Assembly (NCBI GenBank): GCA_903901045.1
Contig: CAIUPP010000068.1
Span: 1 to 64,000 of the forward strand
Direction of reading: 5' to 3'
DNA: 64,000 bases
Source: an uncultured Planctomycetota bacterium
GTDB lineage: Bacteria; Planctomycetota; Brocadiia; CAIUPP01
Shown here: in pieces, positions 1,906-48,222 of the stretch
How positions within the stretch are numbered: the first letter of the stretch is position 1
Layout: every line of letters begins with the position of its first letter
Made by a program: the position numbers and the translations under genes
The notes under the pieces: model-generated
Databases searched by the model: none
Seen by the model: the letters and a program-made list of their open reading frames with translations, nothing else
Told to the model about the DNA's origin: nothing

Positions 1906-3531
1906 TTGACCCCTGCATCTCGATTGAAATTCCTATGCCGTCCGCTTTGGGACCAGACCGTTTCGCGCGATCCGATCGGACGCCTCTGGCGGCGCGATTA
2001 TACCCTCTGGAAGCCGGAACCGGAAGAGATAAGCAACCGCCTGGGCTGGCTGGACCTGCCGTTCTGCATGCGCGCCGACGCAGCGGAGGTCAACGCCTTC
2101 GCCGGGCAGGTGCGCCAGGAGGGGATCAACAGCGTCGTCCTGCTGGGCATGGGCGGGAGCAGCCTCTCGGCCGAGGTGTTGCGCATCGCGCTCGGCGAGA
2201 ACCCCGGTCAGCCGCGAATGCATGTGCTGGACTCGACCGTTCCTGAGAGGGTGGAGCGCGTCACCCGCAGCATCGACCCGGCTCGCACGCTCTTCCTCGT
2301 CTCCAGCAAGTCGGGGGGCACCATCGAAGTCATGTCGCTCTATCGCCATTTCCGCAAGCTCACGGAGGCGGCGGTGGGCGCGGGGGCGGGGAGCCATTTT
2401 GTCGCCATCACCGATCCGGGCACGAGCCTGGAGCAACTCGCGCTGGATGAAAAATTCCGCCGCGCGTTCATCAATCCCCCCGACCTGGGCGGGCGTTACT
2501 CGGTGCTTTCCTATTTCGGGCTTCTCCCCGCGGCGCTCATGGGGCTGGATGTCGTGCAACTCCTCTCGCGCGCGGGAGAGATGGCGCGCTCCTGCGGCGT
2601 GGAAGTCCCCGCGGAGGACAACGCCGGGGCATGGCTCGGGCTGGTCATGGGCTGCATGGCGGTGCTCGGGCGCAACAAGCTCACCATCATCACCTCGCCG
2701 AAACTTGCCGGATTCGGCCTCTGGGCGGAGCAACTCGTGGCTGAAAGCACCGGCAAGGAGGGGAAGGGAATCCTGCCGGTCGCAGGGGAGCCGTTCAACG
2801 CGCCAGGCGTTTATGGAGAGGATCGCCTTTTCACCTACCTGCGACTGGCCACCGACGATTGCACCGAATCGGACCGCCATGCCCGCGAACTTCATGAAGC
2901 GGGGCAGCCGGTGATGAGCATCGAATTGCGCGATATGTACGACCTCGGCGCCGACTTCTTCCGCTGGGAGTTCGCCGTCGCCGTCGCGGGGGTCTGCCTG
3001 GAGATCAATGCCTTCGATCAGCCGAACGTCGAGGAGAGCAAGCGCAACTCGCGGCGGATACTTGAGGAGGTCCAGAAGGGGGGCGCGCTGCCGAAGCTCG
3101 CCGACGTGGGGGACCCCGTCGAACTGATCCATTCCGCGCAGCCGGGGGGCTACGTGGCGCTCATGGCCTTTGCCGAACAGACCCCGGAGAGCGATGCCGC
3201 CTTCAATTCCCTGCGCAATGCCATTCTGACCAGGCGCAAGCTGCCCAGCACGCTGGGCTACGGGCCGCGCTTCCTGCACTCCACCGGCCAGTTCCACAAG
3301 GGAGGGCCGGAGGGAGGGCTGTTCATCCAGTTCACGGCGGACTACCGCAAGGGTGAGCCGATCCCCGGCGCGTCCTACGACTTCGCCACGCTGGCGACGG
3401 GACAGGCGATAGGGGATTTCGAGGCGCTGCAAGCGAACGGACGGCGCGTCGTGCGCGTGCATGTGGGCGAGCCGGCGCAACTGCCCGCGCGCATCCGCGC
3501 CATCGAAAGCAGGCTTGAGCAGAAGAGGTAG
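1906..3531 (+). CDS. pgi: Glucose-6-phosphate isomerase
   Basis: Interconverts glucose 6-phosphate and fructose 6-phosphate in the cytoplasm. The 541-residue protein has the SIS-domain signatures: LGMGGSSLSAEVLR, the sugar-phosphate loop VSSKSGGTIE, a GGRYSVLS segment, EINAFDQPNVEESK (the family's FDQPGVE-type motif) and the late HSTGQFHKGG histidine and lysine region. The sequence resembles the Pgi half of transaldolase-Pgi fusions more than the E. coli enzyme, but no transaldolase domain is present. The start is a TTG with GAGAGGAGAG just upstream. The last codons and the following 30 bases recur at 18928-19000. Confidence 0.93.
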   Translation: MTPASRLKFLCRPLWDQTVSRDPIGRLWRRDYTLWKPEPEEISNRLGWLDLPFCMRADAAEVNAFAGQVRQEGINSVVLLGMGGSSLSAEVLRIALGENPGQPRMHVLDSTVPERVERVTRSIDPARTLFLVSSKSGGTIEVMSLYRHFRKLTEAAVGAGAGSHFVAITDPGTSLEQLALDEKFRRAFINPPDLGGRYSVLSYFGLLPAALMGLDVVQLLSRAGEMARSCGVEVPAEDNAGAWLGLVMGCMAVLGRNKLTIITSPKLAGFGLWAEQLVAESTGKEGKGILPVAGEPFNAPGVYGEDRLFTYLRLATDDCTESDRHARELHEAGQPVMSIELRDMYDLGADFFRWEFAVAVAGVCLEINAFDQPNVEESKRNSRRILEEVQKGGALPKLADVGDPVELIHSAQPGGYVALMAFAEQTPESDAAFNSLRNAILTRRKLPSTLGYGPRFLHSTGQFHKGGPEGGLFIQFTADYRKGEPIPGASYDFATLATGQAIGDFEALQANGRRVVRVHVGEPAQLPARIRAIESRLEQKR

Positions 3532-4725: not shown

Positions 4726-5751
4726 TCAGACGACCTCCGTCCGCCTGCGCTTGGATTCACGCAGATTCGTTTTCGCCGTTCGAATCCAGCTGACCTGGGT
4801 GACCAACTCCGTCAGCGCGGCATTTGCCAGCGCCACTTGGGTGGCATATCGGGGCGTGGTGCTGGCGGGGAAAGTCGCCAGCGTGGCATCGCCGACGAGG
4901 AACACGTTGAAATCCTTGCGCAGATTGTCATAGCCGCAGGTGGTCGCCTTGACGCACATATCCGTGCAATAGCCGGCAAGAAGAATATGGCGCACGCCGA
5001 GCTTCCGCATGAAGTCGCGGGCCTTCTCATACCCCTCGTCATCATAGAAGATGCGATCCGTGGGAACATAGGTGATGGCCGATGAGAGGGGCATCGGCAG
5101 CGTGGCAAAGTCGGGGCCGTTGTAGAAGTCCCTGGCATTGGTGGAAGGGGTTTGATCCATGTAGCTCGTTGCGGGGGCGCGCTCGTCAAGAGTCAAACCC
5201 GGCGTGAGGGGCTGGCCATGGAGGAGAGACCTCTGCCGAACCGCCTCAGCCAACTGCCGCTCCCCCTCCTTCGGGCGCAGCGCTTCGGGCGGGGTGTTGA
5301 CCGAGGCATAGAGCAGCCGTCGGATGGGGTCTTCCTGCAACGGCAGGGAGTAGCTGATCAGCGCCAGATGCGACCGCCATTGCCGGAGGAAAGAGTCCAC
5401 CACCTCTCGCATGTGCTGCTGTCCGATGCGATTCTTGGGGACGGTGCAGAAGAACCGAACGCCGTTGGGCTCCGGCGTGCGAAACCCGTGGTCATCGTCG
5501 ATGCCCCAGGGATGGACGACCAGCGCCGCCGTGGCCTTCGGGTCCAGCCGGTTCTCCATTTCCACAATGCCGTGCGCGTTATACCAGTAACGCCACGCGC
5601 GCACGAGAAGCGTGCCGTTCGGGTCGTTCACCACGGCCGGCGCGAGAAAACGCTGGTCGGCCGGCAGCGGCTCGACGTACTGCGGGTAGTCCGCCAGGAT
5701 GGGCGGGCCGTTCAATACGGGCTGAAGGGTATTCTCATAGGGGAGCGTCAT
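4726..5751 (-). CDS. Isochorismatase-like cysteine hydrolase (cytoplasmic paralogue)
   Basis: A 341-residue member of the isochorismatase-like hydrolase fold. The C-terminal third has GYCTDMCVKATTCGYDN, the equivalent of the family TDxCV nucleophile loop, followed by FNVFLVGDAT. The N-terminal Asp is probably within HPWGIDDDH. The family cleaves isochorismate, nicotinamide, ureido or peroxy amides; the substrate here cannot be read. It is clearly paralogous to the C-terminal half of the protein at 7548-9347, sharing PILADYPxYVEPL, VRxWRYWYNA and QHMREVV. No signal peptide is visible. The AAAGGAA ribosome-binding site supports the start. It is the fifth gene of the leftward operon. Confidence 0.78.
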   Translation of the reverse strand: MTLPYENTLQPVLNGPPILADYPQYVEPLPADQRFLAPAVVNDPNGTLLVRAWRYWYNAHGIVEMENRLDPKATAALVVHPWGIDDDHGFRTPEPNGVRFFCTVPKNRIGQQHMREVVDSFLRQWRSHLALISYSLPLQEDPIRRLLYASVNTPPEALRPKEGERQLAEAVRQRSLLHGQPLTPGLTLDERAPATSYMDQTPSTNARDFYNGPDFATLPMPLSSAITYVPTDRIFYDDEGYEKARDFMRKLGVRHILLAGYCTDMCVKATTCGYDNLRKDFNVFLVGDATLATFPASTTPRYATQVALANAALTELVTQVSWIRTAKTNLRESKRRRTEVV

Positions 5752-5772: not shown

Positions 5773-6708
5773 TCAGGAGGACTTCGACAAGACGGCGCGC
5801 TTCTGGGCGGCGTATTGTCTGGCGAAAGCTGTTCCATCGAAACCGGCGGCGTCCGGGGCCAACTCCGACAGACGCACCACCGCCCCGCCCCGCTCGCGCG
5901 AGACTTTTGCCGCCAGCATGATCCGGATCGATTCGGTGAGCGCCTCGATTGGCGCCAGCCGATGCGGCTGGCCGTGCATGTATCGAATGACCTCTTCCAT
6001 GAGCGTGCGGTAGGGGGTCACGCCGGTGATGGCGACCTGACGCCAGCCTGTCGTGGTGGCCGCGTCCACGCGGAAGCCCGCGCCGGACGGTCCGGCCAAG
6101 TCGATGATTGCCTGAGCGCCGTTGCGGTAGCTGACGTGATGAACCGCGGGGCGGTCGCCCCCGAGCCATGCCACTGACCTGGCTCCACCCCCCAGCAACC
6201 CTCCGGCCATTTCGACGGCGTGAATGCCATAGTCGAAGAACCCGTTCTCGCCATGGATCACGGCGAAATTCACCTGCGCCTGCTGATCGTCGAGTTCCTT
6301 GCGCAGCGCGGCGAGCGGCTCCGCATAGCGCATGGAGCTTCCCCCGATGATCCGCGCGCCCTCGTCGCGCGCGAGGCGCTCCAACTCCAGACAGTCCCGC
6401 AGGTTTCCCGCAATCGGTTTATCGATGAAGACAGGCATTCCCCGCTTGATGAACGGCATGGCGCGTTCGAGGTGCCGGTCCCAGTCGGTCCCGAGGATGA
6501 ACGCCACATCAACCTCGCCCGCCATATCCGCGGGATTGCACACCACATGGCCAATCCCGAAGCGGGTCACAAAATCCTGCGCTTCAGCCTCGGGGCAGAC
6601 TTCGCCCGGGCACACGGCGACTACCCGCGCCTGGTCGCCCGCGTGAAGAACCTCCGTGAACCGCTCCCGGTGCGATGTTTCGATATCCACCAACCCGACC
6701 CGAATCAT
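5773..6708 (-). CDS. Gfo/Idh/MocA-family oxidoreductase
   Basis: A 311-residue NAD(P)-dependent sugar or polyol dehydrogenase-like protein. The N-terminal Rossmann strand (MIRVGLVDIETSHRERF) lacks the classical GxGxxG, but the family's EKP motif is present as IDKPIAGN and is followed by GGSSMRYAEPL. Members oxidise or rearrange sugars, inositols and their derivatives. The GGGAGGG ribosome-binding site places the start at 6708; seven extra upstream codons would bury it. It lies between a polysaccharide deacetylase and an isochorismatase-like gene on one transcript, which suggests processing of a released, modified sugar. Confidence 0.83.
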   Translation of the reverse strand: MIRVGLVDIETSHRERFTEVLHAGDQARVVAVCPGEVCPEAEAQDFVTRFGIGHVVCNPADMAGEVDVAFILGTDWDRHLERAMPFIKRGMPVFIDKPIAGNLRDCLELERLARDEGARIIGGSSMRYAEPLAALRKELDDQQAQVNFAVIHGENGFFDYGIHAVEMAGGLLGGGARSVAWLGGDRPAVHHVSYRNGAQAIIDLAGPSGAGFRVDAATTTGWRQVAITGVTPYRTLMEEVIRYMHGQPHRLAPIEALTESIRIMLAAKVSRERGGAVVRLSELAPDAAGFDGTAFARQYAAQKRAVLSKSS

Positions 6709-24324: not shown

Positions 24325-24354
24325 CGGCCCGCAGGAGAGCGCCTTTGCTAAATT

Positions 24355-24399
24355 GAAAAGGCCCACAGGAGACAAGAAGTCCCTCCTGTGGGCCTTTTC
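24355..24399 (+). terminator. Strong rho-independent terminator after the polysaccharide operon
   Basis: Perfect 16-17-base stem (AAAAGGCCCACAGGAG and its complement) around a short loop, ending in TTTTC. The A-tract on the left arm and T-tract on the right make it potentially bidirectional. The lower-G+C element begins directly after it. Confidence 0.9.
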
Positions 24400-24503
24400 A
24401 CTGGCTCCCCGATTTTGACGCTGCACAAACACGCCAATTTATAGCTTACGACCGTGCCCGCATCAATTGGCACCCCAATCGTAAGAAAAGCCCCAGCCTA
24501 CGG

Positions 24504-24833
24504 TTGTGGGACGCAGTGCTTGACGCTCCCCCCATCCATCACCCCATCGGATACTACGTCCAGCGGGCCGAGGACTACGCCAACGCACTCGCTTCAGGTG
24601 AGTTTTCCAGTCTGCGCGCCCTGTCAAGAAAGGAGGGTATCAGCCCTGCGCGGGTCTGCCAACTTCTACGCCTGCACAGGCTCGACGAGGGCATACGAGC
24701 CGACCTCAAGACGAACGGGAATGGCTGGACGGTACGGCGGCTCTATTCGTTGGCACCACTCCCAAAAGAGGAACAACGGTCAGCGTACTTTGAGCCGCAG
24801 AAACCGGGCAATGGTGCGCGGCAGAGGCAGTGA
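24504..24833 (+). CDS. Small HTH protein resembling recombinase-associated helix-turn-helix segments
   Basis: A 109-residue basic protein with a ParB/KorB-like helix-turn-helix: FSSLRALSRKEGISPARVCQLLRLHRLDEGIRADL, about residues 35-70. Such a segment occurs at the C-terminus of many large serine recombinases and as stand-alone small proteins near them. The best start seems to be TTG at 24504. No good ribosome-binding site is seen and the N-terminus could be truncated at the element's left boundary. A role in controlling recombination is inferred from family and place. Confidence 0.5.
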   Translation: MWDAVLDAPPIHHPIGYYVQRAEDYANALASGEFSSLRALSRKEGISPARVCQLLRLHRLDEGIRADLKTNGNGWTVRRLYSLAPLPKEEQRSAYFEPQKPGNGARQRQ

Positions 24834-24867
24834 AGTTCAACACACCGTTAGAGAAAGGAGCAGGACG

Positions 24868-26532: not shown

Positions 26533-26895
26533 CGCGAGGAGTTGGAGAGCCTATTCTAGCGCCGTTGATCCTGACTGAACGAAGGAGGTTCCAAGAAAGC
26601 ACAAACGCCCGGTGAATAGACAATTGGAGTGAAGCTCGTCTCGGCTAGTCTCGCCAACAAGTACTGCCACCTCAGCCACTAGGCTGTGTTTTTTCGCACG
26701 AGACAAGGGCCGGACGGTGTTCCCATCGTTTCGGGGAGCGCCTGTCCGCTCTTGCGTGTTCCTCGTGCGAGGCCCCGTGGCAGGGGTCGTTGGCGGGGGA
26801 GCGTGGGTGGCGATGGGTTGCTCCCCGTTTTCTTGCGCTCCGCTGCGAATGCTCCGATCAGGCAATCAGTCATCAACATTGGAAGGGGAATGACT
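26533..26895. other. Intergenic region with a long imperfect stem-loop (candidate structured RNA)
   Basis: About 360 bases with no supported gene. After TTTTTT at 26689-26694 comes CGCACGAG (26695-26702), whose complement CTCGTGCG lies at 26762-26769. Inside it, CAAGGGCCGGAC can pair with GTCCGCTCTTG, giving a two-stage stem about 75 bases long. The rest (26770-26895) leads into the zinc-ribbon gene. Confidence 0.45.
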
Positions 26896-28713
26896 ATGGC
26901 GGAATGTCAGAAGTGCAAGAAGCAGGTCGAGGGCGCACCGAAGTTCTGTCCCGAATGCGGTGAACGGCTCTCTCTCGTTAGCAAGTGCCCCAAATGCTCG
27001 GTGGAAGTTGCGCCCGGAGTGAAGTTCTGTAGCGAATGCGGGACTGCTATCGGCGGTGTCGCACCGACTGCGCCGAACACACTTGCTCCGGCGGTGGCGA
27101 TGGACGGGCAACAGGTGGCGTTGAGGCTTTACCGCCCCCTTCAAGGCATCTATAGCAGCTACCTCCTCGAACGGTTCAACACCGCTATGCGCGAGAGGAG
27201 CGTCGTCCGGCGCATGTACATCTTGGAGCCAGGTTCCATAGAGCATGACGTGGACCAAGCGCTATACGATATGACGGCCGCCGTTCCGAAAGTCTTGAAT
27301 CACCTCGGTGCCGGAAATGTCCCTCTGGATACGACCGTCCTGTACAGTGAGTGCAAAGCGTTGCTCGGCCCGGTGAACGCCACGCTGTCCACCTTGCGCA
27401 GCATCATGGCAGAGGCGGGTGTTGCTGTCCAGACGAAGGGAAGCGGGGGCGTGGTAGCCGGCGCGATTCTGGGCGCAAGGAGCAAGTCCGTGTGGGGGAA
27501 CCTCGCGGCCACGGGCCTAGGCGCAGCATACGATAGCGCCGAACACGCGGGGCGGGTACAGGCAGTGGCAAGCAGGTACAACAGCAGCGCCGCGCAATTG
27601 GGCGCGGACTTTCAATCAACATGGGAGCGTGTCTTCGACAAGGTTGCCGCGACGGTTGGCACATCCTTGCGGCTGCAACTTCCCGGCACGAAACAGGTCC
27701 AGCCTGCCGTCTCCGAGTTCACGGATGCTCTGACCCAGGCACATGCCGCTCTATCGTCCAATCAAGTGGCAAGTGCGATTGCTTCGGCATCAAGAGCAGT
27801 GGCCGTATGTTCTGATGACCCGGAAGTACTTGTCGTTCGGGGCGAAGCGCGCTTGCGAAACGGCGAACCGGATGCGGCCCTTGAGGACGCTCAGAAGGTG
27901 CTCATGCTGGAGCCGACGTGCGCAGAAGCATTGCTCCTGAAAGCGGAAGCACTTCATGCCAAGAAAGGAAGTGGTGCTAGTCCGGACACAGATGCTCAAG
28001 TCCGGCAGCTCCTCCAGTCTATCTTGAGCAGTGATGCAGACTACCGTATTTTGCTGAAGGCGGCGTCATCATTTGAGCAGGTTGGCTATGCCGATCTGGC
28101 CAGAGGGCTTCGGAACAAGGCAGCAACATCTGTGCCATTTATCCTACTCGAATGCGCGGATGGCGTGATTCATAGAATTGAAAGGTTACTCGGTGGCAAA
28201 GTATCCCTCCTAGAGGAACATTCCGTGGCGGATGTTTCCCAAGACGAGGGTCGCACGATGTTGAAACGGCTGAAGCAGGGAGTAGATCAAAGGCAGTGGG
28301 AGTTGAATGAGAAGCATCGAGCAATGCTCATCGCCGGACTTGGGGGACTGCGTGACGGGGAGGTTCTCTTGTGGGCGGACGTTGGGCACGTTGGCCGCTC
28401 CTATATAGTTGTGACCACGCAGCGAGTCCTCGCCCACCCTGTGGTCATGAAGATGCCAGATGTCGAGATAGCTCTCGGAAACATAGAGCGTTGTGCGGTG
28501 AAGAAGCTTCTCCTGTTCGTTTACGTGAAAGTCATCATGCGCAACGGCACGTTGCATAACTGGAACAACGGGGAACAGGCGTCCCTTGAGGAGTTCTCTA
28601 AGGTGATGAATGAGGCAATCCTCCCTGCCGTGGGGAAGTGGGTTGATGGGCCAGCAACTCCGTCCCCGCTTCCTAAGATCCAAGCCGTACCTCCGCCATT
28701 GCCGAAGACCTGA
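26896..28713 (+). CDS. Double zinc-ribbon / TPR-like / PH-like multidomain protein
   Basis: A 605-residue protein with two tandem zinc ribbons at the N-terminus (CQKCKK...FCPECGE and CPKCSV...FCSECGT, residues 4-48). Then follow a long helical region, a Gly/Ala-rich hydrophobic stretch (VVAGAILGARSKSVWGNLAATGLGAAY), a TPR-like part near 285-350 (VASAIASASRAVAVCSDDPEVLVVRGEARLRNGEPDAALEDA) and a C-terminal bacterial PH-like fold (VGRSYIVVTTQRVLAHPVV...NIERCAVKKLLLFVYVKVIMRNG). It ends in a proline-rich tail. There is no enzyme motif. The start at ATG 26896 gives AAGGGGA eight bases upstream; ATG 26890 would leave none. It is followed 55 bases later by a GYF_2 membrane protein, suggesting a two-protein envelope-associated unit. 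Confidence 0.65.
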   Translation: MAECQKCKKQVEGAPKFCPECGERLSLVSKCPKCSVEVAPGVKFCSECGTAIGGVAPTAPNTLAPAVAMDGQQVALRLYRPLQGIYSSYLLERFNTAMRERSVVRRMYILEPGSIEHDVDQALYDMTAAVPKVLNHLGAGNVPLDTTVLYSECKALLGPVNATLSTLRSIMAEAGVAVQTKGSGGVVAGAILGARSKSVWGNLAATGLGAAYDSAEHAGRVQAVASRYNSSAAQLGADFQSTWERVFDKVAATVGTSLRLQLPGTKQVQPAVSEFTDALTQAHAALSSNQVASAIASASRAVAVCSDDPEVLVVRGEARLRNGEPDAALEDAQKVLMLEPTCAEALLLKAEALHAKKGSGASPDTDAQVRQLLQSILSSDADYRILLKAASSFEQVGYADLARGLRNKAATSVPFILLECADGVIHRIERLLGGKVSLLEEHSVADVSQDEGRTMLKRLKQGVDQRQWELNEKHRAMLIAGLGGLRDGEVLLWADVGHVGRSYIVVTTQRVLAHPVVMKMPDVEIALGNIERCAVKKLLLFVYVKVIMRNGTLHNWNNGEQASLEEFSKVMNEAILPAVGKWVDGPATPSPLPKIQAVPPPLPKT

Positions 28714-28767
28714 ATCGGCCATGCTGTCAGGGCGGACTCCCAGATTTTCTGTGAAGGGGTTTGATCC

Positions 28768-29902: not shown

Positions 29903-30940
29903 TTAGCCGTCGTGGCCGTCAACGGGAGAAGGCTGAGACGCAGGACTCGTATTCGCCGCTTCGGGCAGTCGGATGCGGAGGTAGTCGGCAGCATTGTCGT
30001 CAAGATTTGTCTTGGCACGGTCGTAACGCATTGTGGTTTCAGGGCTGGCGTGCCTTGAAAAATTCTGTACCTGTCTTATCGAGGCCCCGCCGTCCAGTGC
30101 CAACGTAATTGCGGTCGCTCGCGCAGAGTGCGGCGCGAGCCGCGTGGCGTCCAAACCGGCCCGGCGGGCGTACTTCTTGTAGAGCACGGCAACCGCAGTT
30201 GTGGACAGATGCCGCCTCGGGTCATTGTATGTCTGATTCCTGCTCAAGGCGGGGAAAAGATAGCCGGTGATTTCCCGCGCCTGCGTGTACGCTTGGACTT
30301 CCCGCCACAGGGCCGGGGCAACTTTGATGACATCGTCCCGGCCTCCTTTGCCAAGCACTCGTAATACTGTGTGGCCCGATGTCTGCATGAAGTCTTCCGC
30401 CCGGACCTTCACGACTTCGTGGCGGCGCAGTCCACAGTAAAAGAGAAGTCCCAACATGATGAAGTCGCGCTGGCCTACCGCCATCCGCCTGTCGGGAGTC
30501 GCCAGGAGCCGTTCCGCTTCACGCTTTGTTAGGGCAGGCGTCTTGCCTTCGCGGCTAACCCTCGGACGCTTTACCCGAAAGAATGGGGACTTCTCAATCG
30601 CGCCTTCCTCGCGGAGTACCTCGTAAATACTGGCCACGACAGACACGCGCCGCGCCACGGTTGCGGGGGCCTTCCCCTGCGTGGTGAGAAGACTATCCCG
30701 AAAGGCGGTGGCTTGTTCTCTTGTCACGCTCGACAAGGCGCGAATCAAGTCTTCGCCCGTCACGCCGGGGGCAATTTCCAAGAAGCCTAAGAAGCTCTGG
30801 AAGTCCGTTTTATACGCCTTTCGCGTCAAGGGCGACAATTGGCCCGTGAGGAATGCGTTGACGGCCCTTGCGCCGTCTTCCCGCTTCGCGGGGGCAAGCC
30901 TGCCCCCCAGATCGGCCCTTACGATGCTTTCCATGCCCAT
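29903..30940 (-). CDS. Tyrosine recombinase / phage-type integrase (XerC/D-like)
   Basis: A 345-residue site-specific recombinase. An N-terminal SAM-like core-binding domain (residues 25-125) precedes the catalytic domain with R172 (CGLRRHE), K198 (LGKGGRDD), H271-x-x-R274 (PHSARAT), H297 (SRHASPETT) and the nucleophile Y306 (MRYDRAK), so all catalytic residues are present. It stands alone, leftward, in the middle of the element rather than at an end. This suggests a composite element, an internal inverter or an older integration event. The promoter is at 31075-31103. Confidence 0.9.
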   Translation of the reverse strand: MGMESIVRADLGGRLAPAKREDGARAVNAFLTGQLSPLTRKAYKTDFQSFLGFLEIAPGVTGEDLIRALSSVTREQATAFRDSLLTTQGKAPATVARRVSVVASIYEVLREEGAIEKSPFFRVKRPRVSREGKTPALTKREAERLLATPDRRMAVGQRDFIMLGLLFYCGLRRHEVVKVRAEDFMQTSGHTVLRVLGKGGRDDVIKVAPALWREVQAYTQAREITGYLFPALSRNQTYNDPRRHLSTTAVAVLYKKYARRAGLDATRLAPHSARATAITLALDGGASIRQVQNFSRHASPETTMRYDRAKTNLDDNAADYLRIRLPEAANTSPASQPSPVDGHDG

Positions 30941-31126: not shown

Positions 31127-31155
31127 TTTACAACAGCCTATATTTCTGCTAAAAT
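31127..31155 (+). promoter_or_regulatory. Promoter reading toward the DUF6876-like and SymE-like genes
   Basis: TTTACA at 31127-31132, 17-base spacer and TAAAAT at 31150-31155, back to back with the integrase promoter. The hairpin at 31328-31367 lies between it and the first gene and could attenuate it. Confidence 0.6.
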
Positions 31156-31367: not shown

Positions 31368-31389
31368 GCATTAGAAGGAGGTCATGCCG

Positions 31390-31725
31390 ATGGGCGAGTA
31401 CTACCGATTGCATCCTGGGATGCTCATTACCTGCGGAGTGAAAGCGTTTTGTGACGAACATGGCGCGTGGTGGATGTTGGACATCCTGTGGTCGTATCAG
31501 CCTCAATGCCGGAAGGACAAGATGCTCCGAGAAATACAGTTCTGGAAGTTCGAGAAGCCGACGCCGGACGCCAGCACCATCACGGCCATCTGCGAACGCG
31601 ATGGTGGCGATGTGGCCATTACACAGGAAGTGCCCTACACGGACTTCAGGCCGCAGTCCTGCCGCCTATGGGTTGCCCCCGCCGATGGGGAGCAATGGGT
31701 CATCATGCTGCCGGAGGAGTATTGA
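31390..31725 (+). CDS. DUF6876-like small protein
   Basis: A 111-residue acidic protein. LITCGVKAFCDEHGAWWMLDILWSYQPQC at residues 12-40 resembles the opening of the DUF6876 family (TDGVKYLAEAAGAYWLLDAI pattern), known from mobile elements without assigned function. The strand-rich remainder ends SCRLWVAPADGEQWVIMLPEE. AGGAGG at 31375-31380 is nine bases from this ATG and only three from an earlier one at 31384, so 31390 is preferred. The stop lies two bases before the SymE-like start, indicating an operon. Confidence 0.6.
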   Translation: MGEYYRLHPGMLITCGVKAFCDEHGAWWMLDILWSYQPQCRKDKMLREIQFWKFEKPTPDASTITAICERDGGDVAITQEVPYTDFRPQSCRLWVAPADGEQWVIMLPEEY

Positions 31726-31727
31726 CC

Positions 31728-31937
31728 ATGAAGAACGCCGAGAGCGAGGAGCGCACGTTCACAATTGACCGCATCGCTCGGAGCAAGGTAGAAGGCGGAT
31801 ACCTGTACTATCCATCCTTGCGCCTCGTGGGTCGTTGGCTCGAACGAGCCGGGTTTCAGTACGGATGCCGTGTCACAGTCACAGTAGAGTCCGGGCGGCT
31901 GGTCATTACGCCACGAAAAACGCCTGACGCCACGTGA
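31728..31937 (+). CDS. SymE-like small basic protein
   Basis: A 69-residue protein with the SymE/AbrB-derived core YPSLRLVGRWLERAGFQYGCRVTVTVESGRLVITP at residues 29-63, matching the C-terminal domain of SymE. SymE in E. coli is an SOS-induced toxin or nucleoid-condensing protein controlled by the antisense RNA SymR. In many mobile elements SymE-like genes lie beside restriction genes, as here. I cannot see an antisense promoter with confidence. Confidence 0.78.
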   Translation: MKNAESEERTFTIDRIARSKVEGGYLYYPSLRLVGRWLERAGFQYGCRVTVTVESGRLVITPRKTPDAT

Positions 31938-32041
31938 CCGCAAGCCCCCCGGCTCATGCGTCATGTTGGTATGGCACCCCCAATGCGCCATAGGGACGGA
32001 ACCCCCTCCCTGCAATGTCAATAGCAAGATTCCTTCCACCG

Positions 32042-32061
32042 CTCAACAGTCTGTTGACTTC
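32042..32061. repeat. 20-bp site with palindromic core, left copy
   Basis: CTCAACAGTCTGTTGACTTC, containing the palindrome TCAACAG-T-CTGTTGA. An identical 20-base copy lies at 42065-42084 in the same orientation. Flanking bases are also loosely alike (CCGC before, CCG-GCAGA after). The two copies bracket the 10-kb defence-like gene block. Confidence 0.85.
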
Positions 32062-32093
32062 CGGGCAGATAGCCATGCTGCCGAGGCCCCCAT

Positions 32094-32867
32094 TCAGGAT
32101 GCCTTCGCCGCCGACGCGCGAACAAACCGCGCGAGAGCGTCCGTCGCCATCTGAATTTCATCGGCGTTCAACTTCGGCTTCTCGTGGTCGAGGAATATAG
32201 CGAAGTTCTCTGGAGTCAGTACCCACACTTCCCGTCCTGTGGACGTGCCGTTCACGTACCAGCCTGGATAAGTGACGACGCCACGAAGGGGGAACGTCTT
32301 GCGCGTCTCCTTAGCCAGAAGTTGCCCTATCCAGTCGGCGTGCCACTTCGCCTGAAACACCGGATTCCTGTCGGGCGTGTAGCCGTTGACGGTCACGCTC
32401 TCTCCATCATAGACCACATGCACATCTCCCCTCATGGGCTTGCTCCTCATCTTTGTCTCAATGACGAACACCCCGCCCGGCCCGACGATGACATGGTCCA
32501 CATTGAACTTGCCGGGGACCTCGATATCATGCAGGACTTTGTAGCCCTTCTCGCGCAGAGCTTCCAGTGACTGTCCCACCGAGATTTCGCCTTCGCGGCC
32601 TAGTCTCAGATTTCGCAATTGGGGACGCATCCTGATGTATCTTCGCGCCATGACAGCCGCCCACACCGCAGTAGCAACCGTGAGGGGAATCGGCTGAGGT
32701 TGCCACCGAAGAAGCCACGCTGCCCATTCGTAGGCGCTGAACAAAGCAAAGAAGAACACCGTGACGGCCAGTGGCAGGAAGTCATCAAGCAGCCGGTCAA
32801 TTTCATCTTGCGTGGATTGACCGGGGAGGTGCAGAGGCTTTTCTTTCAGTGGTGAGCGCGTCTCCAT
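32094..32867 (-). CDS. Membrane-anchored NERD-domain nuclease-related protein
   Basis: A 257-residue protein. Residues 25-80 contain two hydrophobic helices (FLPLAVTVFFFALFSAY and PIPLTVATAVWAAVMA). The NERD domain follows from LRLGREGEISVGQSLEALREKGYKVLHDI through FNVDHVIVGPGGVFVIETKMRS; the D-x-V and ETK residues correspond to the nuclease-like catalytic core. NERD proteins are related to restriction-type PD-(D/E)XK nucleases and are frequent in defence islands. It is the outermost leftward gene of the cargo, 33 bases from the left 20-bp site. Confidence 0.82.
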   Translation of the reverse strand: METRSPLKEKPLHLPGQSTQDEIDRLLDDFLPLAVTVFFFALFSAYEWAAWLLRWQPQPIPLTVATAVWAAVMARRYIRMRPQLRNLRLGREGEISVGQSLEALREKGYKVLHDIEVPGKFNVDHVIVGPGGVFVIETKMRSKPMRGDVHVVYDGESVTVNGYTPDRNPVFQAKWHADWIGQLLAKETRKTFPLRGVVTYPGWYVNGTSTGREVWVLTPENFAIFLDHEKPKLNADEIQMATDALARFVRASAAKAS

Positions 32868-32913: not shown

Positions 32914-33186
32914 TCACCCTTTGCGGACTTTTGACCATACAATCTTGGGGGTTCCCGTTTTGATCGTGATCGTGCGTGTCCGTGCGTTCTTGGGAACTTT
33001 TGGCCAAGTGAGCTTGACGACCCGATACTTGGACAGCGAGGAGCCGGCCGGTAGAGTGGCAACAAGTAGGGAGCCGCACATGCCGCAGTATTTGGCGTCC
33101 TCTGGTAAGCCACGGAACTGAAGACGACAACGGGTACAGAGGCAACGGCGTACAGGCTTCTTTGTCCCAGATTTCTGAGCAGGCAT
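32914..33186 (-). CDS. Small zinc-ribbon protein
   Basis: A 90-residue basic protein. CLCTRCRLQFRGLPEDAKYCGMCG at residues 15-38 is a CxxC...CxxC zinc ribbon, followed by about 50 residues rich in Lys, Arg and Thr. There is no enzyme motif. AAAGGAACC before the ATG at 33186 supports the start. It lies between the GIY-YIG and NERD genes on the same strand with about 50-base gaps, so it is probably co-transcribed; a DNA- or protein-binding accessory role is inferred. Confidence 0.6.
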   Translation of the reverse strand: MPAQKSGTKKPVRRCLCTRCRLQFRGLPEDAKYCGMCGSLLVATLPAGSSLSKYRVVKLTWPKVPKNARTRTITIKTGTPKIVWSKVRKG

Positions 33187-33237
33187 TTGGTTCCTTTCTC
33201 TCTCCAACGTGGAAAAGAAAACGCGACGCTCGCTCCG

Positions 33238-33966
33238 CTACCGCGGATTTCTACGAAGTTGACTCAACGGTACCCATGCGCCAGAGGCGTCTTTGTACTT
33301 CCAGAAGTCCCACCCATTCACAGGACGGCCTATGGCGGCTTTCCCGGCCCACGATGGTGAATTGTATCTGTGCCGAAGAAAGTAGATGCAACCTGTACGA
33401 CGCACGCGCGCCCGGTATGTCGTTCCCTTGTGCGTCGCACGAATTGTGAACCGCCGCTGGACGTAAGGCCCCAATGTCGGCTGGCGCGCCCCGTCTTCCA
33501 CCGGCGCGGCGAGCGATATTCGCCTGACTCTGCGCACGAGGCCGTCTCGCCCTCCCAATACGGTGTCCAACTGTTCCTCTTGCGCCTTCTTCATCTTGGT
33601 AAGGAGTTGGGATCGGAGGTTGGAAGCGTGAGGCAGTCTTCCCGTGGAAGCGTTCCCGCGAGGGGCGGCGATCCGCATGACGAGCGACTCAAGTTCTTTG
33701 ATGTGGTCGGCCTTCCGCACGAGGTAGAGGCTGAATCGGTCCCACTTGCCCGCGTGCTTGTCCCGGAGGTGATGATTGATCCGCGTGCGCAGATTCGTTG
33801 CCAGCCCCACATAGTAGAGGTGGGAGCCTTTGTAGAGGGCGTAAACGCCGTGCTGCCGCCCGACCAGTTGGGTCAATTGTTTGGGGAAGCCGGAGAAGAC
33901 TTTGCTGGAGACCTGTTCGAGGTAGCCGGAGACCAAGTGCTGCGTCTTGCGGACTCGCCGCGCCAT
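33238..33966 (-). CDS. GIY-YIG nuclease with C-terminal RAMA-type domain
   Basis: A 242-residue protein. HGVYALYKGSHLYYVGLATNLRTRI at residues 39-63 is a GIY-YIG motif (variants GVY and YVG), with Arg60 in the catalytic position and Glu91 or Glu93 as metal ligand. The last 60 residues (YRARVRRTGCIYFLRHRYNSPSWAGKAAIGRPVNGWDFWKY...WVPLSQLRR) match the RAMA domain, found in restriction and methylation systems and thought to read modified DNA. The combination suggests a modification-dependent or methylation-partnered endonuclease. The start at 33966 has GGGAGGG upstream. It is divergent from the methyltransferase gene. Confidence 0.82.
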   Translation of the reverse strand: MARRVRKTQHLVSGYLEQVSSKVFSGFPKQLTQLVGRQHGVYALYKGSHLYYVGLATNLRTRINHHLRDKHAGKWDRFSLYLVRKADHIKELESLVMRIAAPRGNASTGRLPHASNLRSQLLTKMKKAQEEQLDTVLGGRDGLVRRVRRISLAAPVEDGARQPTLGPYVQRRFTIRATHKGTTYRARVRRTGCIYFLRHRYNSPSWAGKAAIGRPVNGWDFWKYKDASGAWVPLSQLRRNPR

Positions 33967-41303: not shown

Positions 41304-41978
41304 ATGGGAAAGAATAGCAACGTCAAACCCGGCCTGAACATTCCGAAGGACGGCCACATTGAAGCGTTTGCGATCATCGTGGATTTGAATCAGTTTACAG
41401 CGATGGTGAGCAAAGCTGAGAAGGAAGGCGCGTTGATTGCGCAATTCACACGTGATGCACTGTATGGTGCTATTCGTGAGATCGAGGCGCAAGGCGGGGA
41501 AGTCGTTGGGTTCATGGGCGACGCGGTGTTAGGCATTATCCAAGACGGGGAGGGCGCGGCTATAGCCTGTTTCGGAATTGCGAAGGACCTTGATAGGCAA
41601 TGCGAGTATATCTCCGACGCCCAGTCCAGCCGCGACCGCAACTGGCCCTTCGCGCCCGGAGGGCCATCACTCAAAATCGCTATTGAGTATGGTTCAATGG
41701 ACATCTCAACGATCTCCAGCCGCCTCCTCGGCGAACAACGTCTGCTCATCGGTAGCCCCATCAACTACGCCGCACGCATCAGCGCTGCCGGAGAGGGAAA
41801 CCGCTGCGTAATCGGGCCGGTTGCTGCAAAGAAAGAGTTCAGTTCCTACACCCTTGACGGGCCACATTCGATCAGAGGGAAACGCGGCGAACCCGCCTAC
41901 AAATACTATTTCTTCCCGATGGATGACATCTGGATTGAAGGGCCAAGAGAGCCTGGGAAAGAAACGTATTGGGGGTAA
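41304..41978 (+). CDS. Class III nucleotidyl cyclase with altered base-specificity residues
   Basis: A 224-residue single-domain cyclase. Metal-binding aspartates are D27 (IIVDLNQFT) and D73 (VVGFMGDAV), and the transition-state pair is N154 and R158 in INYAARIS, so catalysis should be intact. The residue that selects purines four before the second Asp, usually Lys, is Gly69; the position seven before the catalytic Asn, usually Asp or Thr in adenylyl cyclases, is Leu147. Pycsar pyrimidine cyclases deviate at this pocket too. No sensor, HAMP or membrane segment is attached. It is the last gene before the right 20-bp site. No cyclic-nucleotide-binding effector is recognisable beside it. The ribosome-binding site is weak. 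Confidence 0.78.
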   Translation: MGKNSNVKPGLNIPKDGHIEAFAIIVDLNQFTAMVSKAEKEGALIAQFTRDALYGAIREIEAQGGEVVGFMGDAVLGIIQDGEGAAIACFGIAKDLDRQCEYISDAQSSRDRNWPFAPGGPSLKIAIEYGSMDISTISSRLLGEQRLLIGSPINYAARISAAGEGNRCVIGPVAAKKEFSSYTLDGPHSIRGKRGEPAYKYYFFPMDDIWIEGPREPGKETYWG

Positions 41979-42064
41979 GGGCCAACCATAGTATTCCCGG
42001 CAAGCGTTCTCGCCTACGACGCGGCCTCCTCCCCGCCTGTCAGTAGAGAAGTTGTTCCCCCGCA

Positions 42065-42084
42065 CTCAACAGTCTGTTGACTTC
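42065..42084. repeat. 20-bp site with palindromic core, right copy
   Basis: Identical to 32042-32061 and in the same orientation. It lies between the cyclase gene and the promoter of the recombinase operon. Confidence 0.85.
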
Positions 42085-42154
42085 AGCCGAGCAGAGAACA
42101 TGGCGCGGGCCTAACTACATCCACGTACCTATACTCCCAAGTACACTTGTTATA

Positions 42155-42184
42155 TTGACAACAGAGGGCGTTCCCGGATATAAT
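42155..42184 (+). promoter_or_regulatory. Consensus promoter of the HTH-recombinase operon
   Basis: TTGACA at 42155-42160, an 18-base spacer and TATAAT at 42179-42184: both boxes are perfect. The start codon of the HTH gene is 28 bases beyond, giving a very short leader. A repressor, perhaps the HTH protein itself, would be needed to keep it silent. Confidence 0.85.
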
Positions 42185-42211: not shown

Positions 42212-42571
42212 ATGGACAAGAAAACGATGGGCACGTCAGGACGGCCTGAAGGTTCAGGGCGTTTGACGGAAGGCTTTCCCGTACCGAGGAAGTTTTCACC
42301 CGATGACATTTGCTCACTTCGCAAGAGGCTTGGCAAGCGATTGGGTCTGGCACGGCGTCTCTCGCAGCGGGACTTGGCGGACATCTTGGGCTTGAAGCGG
42401 CGCGTGGTGTGCGCGTGGGAACTTGGCACGAAGCACCCGTCTGCTGCGTCTCGACGCCTCATGGAGATTCTGACAATTGTGCCGGAGGTCGCGCCTGCCT
42501 TGATTGCGAGGGAAGGCGCATGGCGCAAACTCTTGGAGCGAAAGGCTCGGAAACGGAAGGTGAGCAAATGA
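42212..42571 (+). CDS. XRE-like helix-turn-helix regulator
   Basis: A 119-residue basic protein with a Cro/CI-type helix-turn-helix: LGLARRLSQRDLADILGLKRRVVCAWELGTKHPSAASRRLMEIL, residues 43-86. It is the first gene behind a consensus promoter, and its stop overlaps the next start (ATGA). The likely job is to regulate its own operon, which ends with the serine recombinase, in the manner of an element repressor. Ribosome-binding site TAGGAGG is eight bases upstream. Confidence 0.8.
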   Translation: MDKKTMGTSGRPEGSGRLTEGFPVPRKFSPDDICSLRKRLGKRLGLARRLSQRDLADILGLKRRVVCAWELGTKHPSAASRRLMEILTIVPEVAPALIAREGAWRKLLERKARKRKVSK

Positions 42572-42963
42572 GTAAACCGATTACGGCGGAACGACGCAAG
42601 AGGCTGGACGAAGAGAAAGCCGCGTTCGTCCGAGCGTGTGATAGACAGGTCGAGATGCTGTCAATGCTGGCCCTGCAACTTCCCGGTATTGACAGAGTGG
42701 CAGCGGAGCTTTCGGCTGTGCTCGTTCGCCTCTACGATAAATATGACCCGGATGCGTCTGATGGAACGGTTGAAAAACTTCATGCCTTGATTTTGCGGGA
42801 ATGGAAGAAGATGCCCGGCACGGAGACGGACAAGAAGAAGCTGACCGTCGTTCGGGATAGAGTCGTGAGCTTCATTGAGGACAAGGGGGCTGAGGTGGCA
42901 GAGGCAGATAAGACCCGCTTTGTCGAATTGATATCTTATGCCCTCTCTGCGGGAGCACGGTAA
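42568..42963 (+). CDS. Hypothetical helical protein in the recombinase operon
   Basis: A 131-residue, mostly helical, charged protein sandwiched between the HTH regulator (4-base overlap) and the serine recombinase (1-base overlap, TAATG). I do not recognise a family; no cysteine, nuclease or membrane motif is visible. The tight coupling on both sides suggests a recombination directionality or accessory factor, by inference from position only. Confidence 0.6.
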   Translation: MSKPITAERRKRLDEEKAAFVRACDRQVEMLSMLALQLPGIDRVAAELSAVLVRLYDKYDPDASDGTVEKLHALILREWKKMPGTETDKKKLTVVRDRVVSFIEDKGAEVAEADKTRFVELISYALSAGAR

Positions 42964-44678
42964 TGGACAAAAAGAAGGTGTCATTTTACGTCCGCGTCTC
43001 CACGGACGCACAGGTGAACAGAAGTCCTTCTATTGTGAATCAGCGGCAAAAACTGGAACAGGAGTTGAAGTATCGAAATGACCGCCGGCATGAGAACGAG
43101 GCGGAGTGGGTTCTCGCCGAGATATTTCAGGACAGGGGGCGCAGCGGGAAGGACACTGACCGGCCAGGTCTGCACCAACTTCGCGCCGCGATCCGTGAGC
43201 GCAAAGTTGACGTTGTGATGGTGACGGAACTAAGCCGCATCAGTCGGTCATTGAAGGACGCCTGCGAACTGTGCGAGGAGTTCAAGGCCGCGAACGTTGA
43301 CTTCATCTGCCTTAGAGAGCGATTTGACACAACTGACCCGGCTGGCAAGCTCTTTTTCCAGATTGCTTCGGCCTTCGCTGAGTTCGAGCGAGAACGGTTG
43401 ATCGAGCGAACGCGCGCCGGTGTGCTGCAAATGCGGTTGCGCGGGGAGTGGTTTGGACGCCGCATTCTTGGCTATAGGCCGACCAAGGGAGCGGAAGGCC
43501 GCGTGGTACTCGTGAAAGAAGAAGCCTCCGTGGTAAAACTTGCCTTTGACTTGTACGAGGAGTTGGGTAGCCTACAAGCCGTCGCGGATGATCTGAACCG
43601 CAGAGGGTATCGCACACAGAACTTCGAGCGTAGGACATGGGACAGCGACCAGAACGCTGAACGGGTGCAGCACCACGGCAACACCCCATTCTCGAAAGAG
43701 AACATCCGGGGCATTCTCTCGTCTCTCCGCTATACGGGGTTCGACGAAATCAATCCTGAGAACGAAGGCAAACCTGATCTCGACGGAGCAAAACTGGAAG
43801 ACCGCTATTATCTCGTAACCGGCAAATGGCCTGCCATCATCTCGCGGAGACAGTTCGACCATGTCCAAGAGTTGATCCGTGCGAACAGAGAAACGGGACA
43901 CAACCAGCAGAAGGAACGTTTCGTCAACTATCTCCTTCAGGGTCGCGTGTTCTGCGCGCGCTGCGGCGCGCGGGCATTCCAAGGGGCCGGGACGAGTAAG
44001 GGCATTGAGAAGGCAACAGGGAAGAACCGACTTCACGGCTACTATCATCTGAGGTGCGGATGCTTCAAGGGTAACGGACGGCAGAAAACCTACGGTATCC
44101 CCTCCGCCGGTCTCGAAACTGCCGTTCTGAAACGGATGGAACAACTTGCGGCGTCACCGGAACTGATGGACGCCATTTTCGCCGACGCACGGGCGCATCT
44201 GGGCGGCGAGGAGAGTAAGCGGCATGGTCAGATTGTCTCGCTCCAAAAAGAAGTTGACCGACTCGGAAAGGACATTTCCGGGGTCATTCGCCAGATGGCC
44301 AGCTTGTCCGATGACGAGGTGCGGAATACTGTTCAAGCTGAAATCCGCAAGATGGAGGAGGAGCGTTCGCGGAAAACGGCAGAGTTGGAAAGGCTTAGGT
44401 CCTCGCCGTCGCCAACACTCGCGCCACGTGATGAACTTGCGCGGACATTCGGAAGCTTGGGAGATGCGCTGAAGTGTTTATCCTCGGCTCAACAGCGGGA
44501 CCTACTCCGTCTTGTAGTGAACAGAATCGAAGTGGACAGGATGGAAATCAGAATAGGCTTGAACGTTGCTCTTACTGCCCCACTGCCTGACCCGAACAAA
44601 CTCCCCCTTCGCGGGGAGTTTGTTCGGCGGCCTGATTGGCTCCTCGGTGAGGACTTGAACCTCAAACCTAGTGGTTAA
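42963..44678 (+). CDS. Large serine recombinase (element integrase)
   Basis: A 571-residue recombinase. The N-terminal resolvase domain has R11 and nucleophile S13 in FYVRVSTDAQ, then VVMVTELSRISRS, and ASAFAEFERERLIERTRAG leads into helix E. The recombinase domain (170-270) is followed by a zinc ribbon (VFCARCGARAF...YHLRCGC) and a coiled coil about 420-490. The last 13 residues (WLLGEDLNLKPSG) are encoded antisense to tRNA-Asn including its CCA, so the natural C-terminus is supplied by the integration site. This supports the tRNA as the attachment site. It is the last gene of the HTH operon. Confidence 0.92.
   Translation: MDKKKVSFYVRVSTDAQVNRSPSIVNQRQKLEQELKYRNDRRHENEAEWVLAEIFQDRGRSGKDTDRPGLHQLRAAIRERKVDVVMVTELSRISRSLKDACELCEEFKAANVDFICLRERFDTTDPAGKLFFQIASAFAEFERERLIERTRAGVLQMRLRGEWFGRRILGYRPTKGAEGRVVLVKEEASVVKLAFDLYEELGSLQAVADDLNRRGYRTQNFERRTWDSDQNAERVQHHGNTPFSKENIRGILSSLRYTGFDEINPENEGKPDLDGAKLEDRYYLVTGKWPAIISRRQFDHVQELIRANRETGHNQQKERFVNYLLQGRVFCARCGARAFQGAGTSKGIEKATGKNRLHGYYHLRCGCFKGNGRQKTYGIPSAGLETAVLKRMEQLAASPELMDAIFADARAHLGGEESKRHGQIVSLQKEVDRLGKDISGVIRQMASLSDDEVRNTVQAEIRKMEEERSRKTAELERLRSSPSPTLAPRDELARTFGSLGDALKCLSSAQQRDLLRLVVNRIEVDRMEIRIGLNVALTAPLPDPNKLPLRGEFVRRPDWLLGEDLNLKPSG
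44592..44627. repeat. 15-bp perfect hairpin at the recombinase 3' end, beside the tRNA
   Basis: CCGAACAAACTCCCC pairs perfectly with GGGGAGTTTGTTCGG around a six-base loop. It lies inside the recombinase coding region, nine bases from the tRNA-Asn CCA. It may stop transcription from the tRNA or form part of the attachment site. Confidence 0.8.
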
Positions 44679-44711
44679 CAGCCACCCGCTCTACCATTGA
44701 GCTACCGAGGA
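44640..44711 (-). tRNA. tRNA-Asn (anticodon GTT)
   Basis: Cloverleaf on the minus strand: acceptor TCCTCGG/CCGAGGA, D stem GCTC/GAGC, anticodon stem GGTGG/CCACT (one G-T pair) with loop CTGTTAA giving anticodon GTT, and T arm TGAGG/CCTCA with TTCAAGT. Discriminator G is followed by an encoded CCA (44639-44637). Its 3' part overlaps the antisense 3' end of the serine recombinase gene and marks the right end of the integrated element. Confidence 0.96.
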
Positions 44712-47882: not shown

Positions 47883-48222
47883 AATACTCTCCGCTGCTTG
47901 CCGGGCAGCGGCCGCATGTTGCGAATGACCCGGGACTCATGCCGCTGCCTGTGAAGCTATTGTACTCTCCGGCTATTGCACTGCAAGCGTCCTGTATACG
48001 CTCTGTGCGCCGTCTGACCCACGTGCGCGGATTCGTGACTTGGCGAAACGGCCGAAGGAAGATAAAATGATTGGATTGTTGCCCTTCCAGCCGCGAGCCG
48101 GTTTTCATCCGGACTTCCGGGCGGAGTGCATTTCGCCCTGTCATAGCGCAAGGGGGCGACACAAGACTTTCCATTGGAAAGTATGGTGTCCCCACCCTGC
48201 CGAAGAGAGAAAGGTGTGACTC
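47883..48222. other. Divergent intergenic region with promoters and a REP copy
   Basis: 340 bases between the epimerase and malic enzyme genes. It contains a leftward promoter candidate (47959-47986), a rightward one (TTGGCG at 48040-48045, 17-base spacer, TAAAAT at 48063-48068) and REP-like copy 3 at 48154-48193. No small gene is supported. Confidence 0.6.
48154..48193. repeat. REP-like palindromic element, copy 3
   Basis: Inverted repeat with about 18-base arms around an ATT loop, sharing the GACACARRACTTTCC core of copies 1 and 2. It has more arm mismatches (GGCGACAC against GGTGTCCCC), so it is an older or degenerate copy. It lies in the untranslated leader of the malic enzyme gene. Confidence 0.8.

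Follow-up and report, generated by a model that had tools for sequence, protein, structure and literature searches.

The loading of defence genes into mobile islands as ready blocks is mostly inferred from gene content, and a defined joint sequence would make cargo loading directly assayable. Several described systems come close to the locus reported here. In integron attC arrays, homologous, imperfect sites of 60-140 bp lie in one orientation at the cassette ends, the adjoining tyrosine recombinase faces away from the array and a promoter faces into it. In the Xer-dependent pdif modules of plasmids, short inverted-repeat sites flank exchangeable gene modules; a pdif site measures 28 bp, with 11-bp arms and a 6-bp spacer. 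In SCC elements, which insert site-specifically, a large serine recombinase accompanies cargo for restriction and defence, and the direct repeats form the element ends. SSV-type suicidal integrases are tyrosine recombinases that are called exclusive to archaea; their attP lies within the integrase gene, which is split on integration (PMC8371274).

The 64,000-nucleotide stretch of DNA analysed here (the window) holds a locus that resembles each of these systems in part. With integrons it shares the homologous sites in one orientation at the cargo ends and the gene and promoter directions, with pdif modules the short inverted repeats flanking a set of genes, with SCC a CcrB-like recombinase and the kind of cargo, and with SSV the position of attP.

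An integrative element in a tRNA-Asn gene

The site discussed below lies in an integrative element of ~20.2 kb (24403-44643), which is inserted at the 3' end of a tRNA-Asn gene (Table 1). It forms a stretch of lower G+C from ~24.4 to 44.6 kb that ends in tRNA-Asn (44637-44711, minus strand). The CCA end of this tRNA contains the hexamer GGCTCC, which is found again at 24403. When the att halves are joined, a dyad centred inside the hexamer has 15 matches of 24, a value attained at 0.26% of random places. The gene right of tRNA-Asn has no homologue in the one same-family genome compared. A perfect 18-bp hairpin at 24354-24400, just before the left end, probably terminates transcription of the host gene upstream.

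The large serine recombinase gene at the right end (PF00239, E = 3e-37) has CcrB as its best NCBIfam match, at 146.5 bits against a cut-off of 900. When the element ends are joined at GGCTCC as in the circle, a single open frame of 701 aa results, in which the recombinase runs into the left-end sequence. Both parts align in one frame to a 658-aa paralogue encoded elsewhere in the genome, on another contig (residues 5-401, E = 2e-34; residues 600-684, E = 1e-6). Read from this joined frame, attP lies inside the serine recombinase gene, and the predicted effect of integration is removal of the C-terminal domain. After integration into tRNA-Asn, a ~560-aa N-terminal part stands at the right end and an HTH-like C-terminal part of ~140 aa at the left. 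In the genomes examined, relatives of this recombinase reach at most ~38% identity, and this over a limited stretch; those at 22-38% identity have a different layout around them.

The left-side backbone further comprises small HTH-like and HU-like proteins (judged by eye), a zinc-ribbon/TPR protein and a GYF-domain protein. At its zinc-ribbon start (26882-27013), the TPR gene has 83% DNA identity to the very end of contig C132 (L043 10316-10447). This contig also bears tyrosine recombinase genes and may carry part of a second, related element that the assembly has cut.

Table 1. Positions of the features of the element, with the evidence or context for each.
Feature	Position	Strand	Evidence or context
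Element left end, attL core GGCTCC-CCGA	24403..24412	+	GGCTCC recurrence
Cut-off C-terminal part of serine recombinase	24409..24834	+	In frame with 42963-44643 in the circular form
Backbone: XerC/XerD-like tyrosine recombinase	29903..30940	-	PF00589 E = 1e-18; TIGR02225 E = 5e-33, below cut-off
Backbone: DUF6876 protein and SymE-like protein	31384..31937	+	Domain matches
Diverged repeat, copy 1 (~90 bp)	31995..32085	+	Between SymE-like stop (31937) and NERD stop (32094)
Copy 1 of 20-bp core	32042..32061	+	Palindrome 32043-32057
Cargo: NERD-domain protein	32094..32867	-	PF08378 E = 2e-18
Cargo: small CxxC zinc-ribbon-like protein	32914..33207	-	ORF and translation, judged by eye
Cargo: GIY-YIG / RAMA-DUF4357 protein	33238..33966 (start approximate)	-	Pfam matches just under curated cut-offs
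Cargo: type IIG-like N6-methyltransferase / restriction protein, 1318 aa	34115..38071	+	PF02384, PF07669, PADLOC REase_MTase_IIG E = 1e-29
Cargo: TrlF-family PHP + AAA ATPase, related to anti-phage Ppl	38493..41180	+	NCBIfam NF045780 439 bits, cut-off 350
Cargo: Pycsar-like nucleotide cyclase	41304..41978	+	PADLOC PycC E = 1.6e-9
Diverged repeat, copy 2 (~90 bp)	42018..42108	+	Between cyclase stop (41978) and promoter-like site of HTH-recombinase operon (42155)
Copy 2 of 20-bp core	42065..42084	+	Palindrome 42066-42080
Backbone: HTH protein (weak MqsA-type match) and 131-aa protein	42212..42963	+	HTH gene 42212-42571; operon with serine recombinase
Backbone: CcrB-like large serine recombinase, cut by integration	42963..44678	+	Last residues from antisense of tRNA-Asn
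Element right end, attR core GGCTCC-TCGG	44638..44647	+	3' end of tRNA-Asn 44637-44711 (minus)

A paired palindromic site at both edges of the defence genes

Inside the element, the 20-mer CTCAACAGTCTGTTGACTTC occurs twice on the plus strand, the two starts being 10,023 bp apart, and each copy contains the odd palindrome TCAACAG-T-CTGTTGA (TCAACAGTCTGTTGA) with 0 mismatches. A sequence-only reading had pointed out this 20-base identity with its perfect 15-base palindrome in two direct copies 10 kb apart and held chance to be unlikely; the window scan confirms the former and simulation bears out the latter. With two mismatches allowed, the palindrome gives four rows (two sites on both strands) vs 0.05 matches in shuffles. 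Among 300 simulated windows (order-3 Markov), two (0.7%) contain an exact 20-base repeat and none a 15-bp odd palindrome that occurs twice. Throughout the 4.77-Mb genome the 20-mer has exactly two copies, even with three mismatches, and is thus not scattered. Both copies are intergenic. Elsewhere in the window, a 22-base direct repeat CATCCGCGCCATCGAAAGCAGG lies outside the element at 3492 and 18928, 15 kb apart, and short dispersed repeats at 43-83, 554-650 and 48151-48196 have counterparts on several further contigs (C21, C108, C71).

Each core is embedded in a diverged repeat of ~90 bp. In total, 62 of 87 aligned bases are identical, 43 of 68 (~63%) outside the core; by part, the matches are 30/46 to the left, 19/19 in the core as aligned and 13/22 to the right. 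The left flank reaches a local alignment score of 17, attained by 0.07% of random pairs, and a core-anchored score of 13 vs a maximum of 11 in 600 trials, while the right flank alone is weak (score 8, attained by 33% of random pairs). A blastn search of copy 1 against the whole genome finds copy 2 with 77% identity over 60 bp (E = 4.7e-4). Hence the loose similarity of the flanks, from which a longer ancestral repeat had been suspected, is real. Since identity has fallen to ~63% in the flanks but is complete over 20 bp, the core either is under selection or was homogenised by recombination.

The two cores bracket a cargo of six genes of predicted defence type, and the mobility and regulatory genes lie outside. 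All recognisable defence genes are found between the cores, in a block of defence-type genes only that abuts both sites; both recombinases, the HTH operon and the DUF6876 and SymE-like genes are found beyond them. Relatives of the methyltransferase (37-59% identity) occur at six loci in five other genomes, and none of these loci has any of the other cargo genes beside them, which suggests that parts of the cargo move separately from the element. By composition, cargo and backbone are not distinguishable. The tyrosine recombinase lies ~1.1 kb left of copy 1, and the residues R...HxxR...H...Y are seen in its translation.

We tentatively read the paired site as a cargo-junction (recombination) site. 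The joints of the defence block with the element would then be two homologous ~90-bp recombination sites whose 20-bp palindromic core does not vary, and exchange might also take place there. If an incoming circular block with one such site recombined with another in the backbone, the inserted block would be flanked by two direct copies, as is observed, and such an event may have placed the cargo. The nearest candidate enzyme would be the XerC/D-like tyrosine recombinase left of copy 1; host homologous recombination between the repeats is an alternative agent that would yield an identical picture. This reading is drawn from the pairing of the site, the longer homology, the position at both cargo edges and the presence of exactly two copies. 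The separate movement of cargo parts and a tyrosine recombinase with catalytic-type residues near copy 1 also count for it. In contrast, the tyrosine recombinase is located outside the block that it would move, the dyad has no 6-8 bp spacer separate from its arms as is usual in tyrosine recombinase cores, the composition of cargo and backbone is alike and no analogous repeat was seen beside the relatives of the tyrosine recombinase (32-44% identity). The failure to find a related element with different cargo, an empty site or an excised circle counts against it as well.

These searches covered genomes, viral contigs, plasmids and phages. The 20-mer has no match in GTDB genome contigs, and a 19-mer of the core none in IMG/VR. 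A profile of the ~90-bp unit, run over 392 related genomes, finds just the two copies of the window (85-86 bits), the next match scoring 19 bits. Near-matches to the 20-mer in genomes of the class and phylum (L005-L011, two mismatches) are about as frequent as those to a reversed-pattern control; one of them, L005, keeps the palindrome via paired changes and was discounted, lying within a helicase-like coding frame. Searched for on its own, the 15-mer is present in over 120 viral contigs, with one match each among the 80 listed, and the ~90-bp flank is missing from all of these 80 (best 15.5 bits vs 85). Nothing was found in plasmid and phage records. Up to 392 related genomes, GTDB and IMG/VR yielded no related element, and the assembly, which has just the two sites, contains neither an excised circle nor an empty site. 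The tyrosine recombinase has one relative at 44% identity, in an unrelated setting. The element is a singleton among the genomes and collections searched. In another genome (L035), a 20-bp direct repeat TCTACTGATTACATACGGAA with similar flanks (1310-1329 and 5987-6006) encloses a large serine recombinase, with a tRNA-Asn nearby, and is a candidate att pair of a 4.7-kb element. It was rejected as an analogue, since its sequence differs, the recombinase is enclosed and the repeat is an ordinary att-pair candidate.

The proposal that cargo may be exchanged at this boundary is supported for the boundary, with both copies exactly at the edges of the defence cargo and facing mobility or regulatory genes; for exchange itself, no related element was found in the collections searched and no alternative junction in the assembly. 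A broader picture, in which the island has a modular cargo bay where the palindromic site and the XerC/D-like recombinase swap whole multi-gene defence blocks while the serine recombinase places the element in tRNA-Asn by splitting its own gene, would be rather unlikely as a whole.

Alternative functions of the site

The palindrome might instead be an operator bound by a dimeric regulator that the element encodes. The simplest candidate is the HTH protein, which would control its own operon from copy 2, upstream of it, and would work through looping or control of readthrough at copy 1. We regard this as unlikely, though it fares best among the alternatives. Odd palindromes of this size suit HTH dimers. 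Copy 2 stands ~75 bp upstream of the -35 box of a promoter-like TTGACA-18-TATAAT (42155-42184; 12/12 sigma-70-like) ahead of the HTH-recombinase operon, and ACAACAG, the tail of a half-site, falls across the -35 box in both of the best promoter-like sites of the region, at 31127 and 42155. However, this places copy 2 too far upstream for simple repression, and copy 1 sits between converging genes with no gene start adjoining. An operator would have no obvious work there, which favours the cargo joint. Furthermore, an operator does not need the 90-bp homologous flank, and the HTH protein has no homologue in 392 genomes that could show a conserved upstream palindrome.

Somewhat less probable is a signal at the 3' ends of transcripts, the 90-bp unit being a terminator, perhaps Rho-dependent, or another 3' RNA element that follows the DUF6876-SymE and methyltransferase-TrlF-cyclase groups and was duplicated with or without capture of the cargo. 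Both units start 40-58 bp past a plus-strand stop codon (41978 and 31937, respectively), their upstream parts are C-rich on this strand, with a C-G excess that ranks among the top 1-6% of the element according to the counting window, and the core can pair into a 6-bp stem. Against this, the units fold barely better than shuffles (z -0.2 to -1.8) and have no Rfam match, and an invariant 20-bp core is unexpected for a Rho-dependent terminator. An intrinsic terminator was rejected: a GC-rich stem followed by a T-run is absent, and no intrinsic terminator was called at the units.

A chance or functionless repeat is highly improbable. Repeats of 18 bases do arise in 9% of simulated windows, as exemplified by GAAGGGGTTTGATCCATG at 5144 in the chromosome and at 28753 in the element, where it ends in the start codon of the GYF-domain gene, but the simulated frequencies of the 20-mer and of the doubled palindrome are far lower (see above), and the flanking homology is independent support against chance.

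That the copies are attachment sites of the serine recombinase and hence a scar of the whole element, as direct repeats near such an enzyme might imply, is barely credible: the 20-mer is unlike the att core GGCTCC, which is backed by the tRNA end, the in-frame recombinase across attP and the dyad of the joined site, and its copies are not at the outer ends. The insertion scar that the sequence-only reading had considered is thus ruled out, the element's own integration sites being 24403 and 44638.

Comparison with described systems

Despite the similar arrangement of its sites, the locus is not an integron. The recombinase is XerC/D-like, XerD and XerC models outscoring the integron-integrase model TIGR02249 (46.5 bits vs a cut-off of 265). 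Unlike attC, the site is conserved in its core and not at its two ends; it lacks the R''/R' ends (RYYYAAC ... GTTRRRY), as GTTGACT does not fit the right end, and has no significant single-strand fold (bottom-strand z -0.4 and -1.0). Moreover, one 10-kb multi-gene block takes the place of single-gene cassettes. The site differs from pdif in its 15-bp dyad with a single-base centre, and the host XerCD is not implicated. Membership of the SCC class was likewise rejected: the serine recombinase scores far under the CcrB cut-off, the target is tRNA-Asn and not rlmH, and the repeats are internal, whereas those of SCC are the element ends.

The split recombinase looks like a bacterial, serine-class counterpart of archaeal SSV-type suicidal integration. 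As in that class, its ORF is continuous across attP in the inferred circle and split in the chromosome. It is not a member, being a serine recombinase (PF00239) and not an archaeal tyrosine recombinase, and it loses only its C-terminal part, ~140 of 701 aa. If confirmed, a self-splitting serine recombinase would extend a strategy termed exclusively archaeal to bacteria and to another recombinase class (PMC8371274). For the palindromic site, which lies at both cargo edges in the same orientation, the best reading is provisionally that it works like a cassette boundary.
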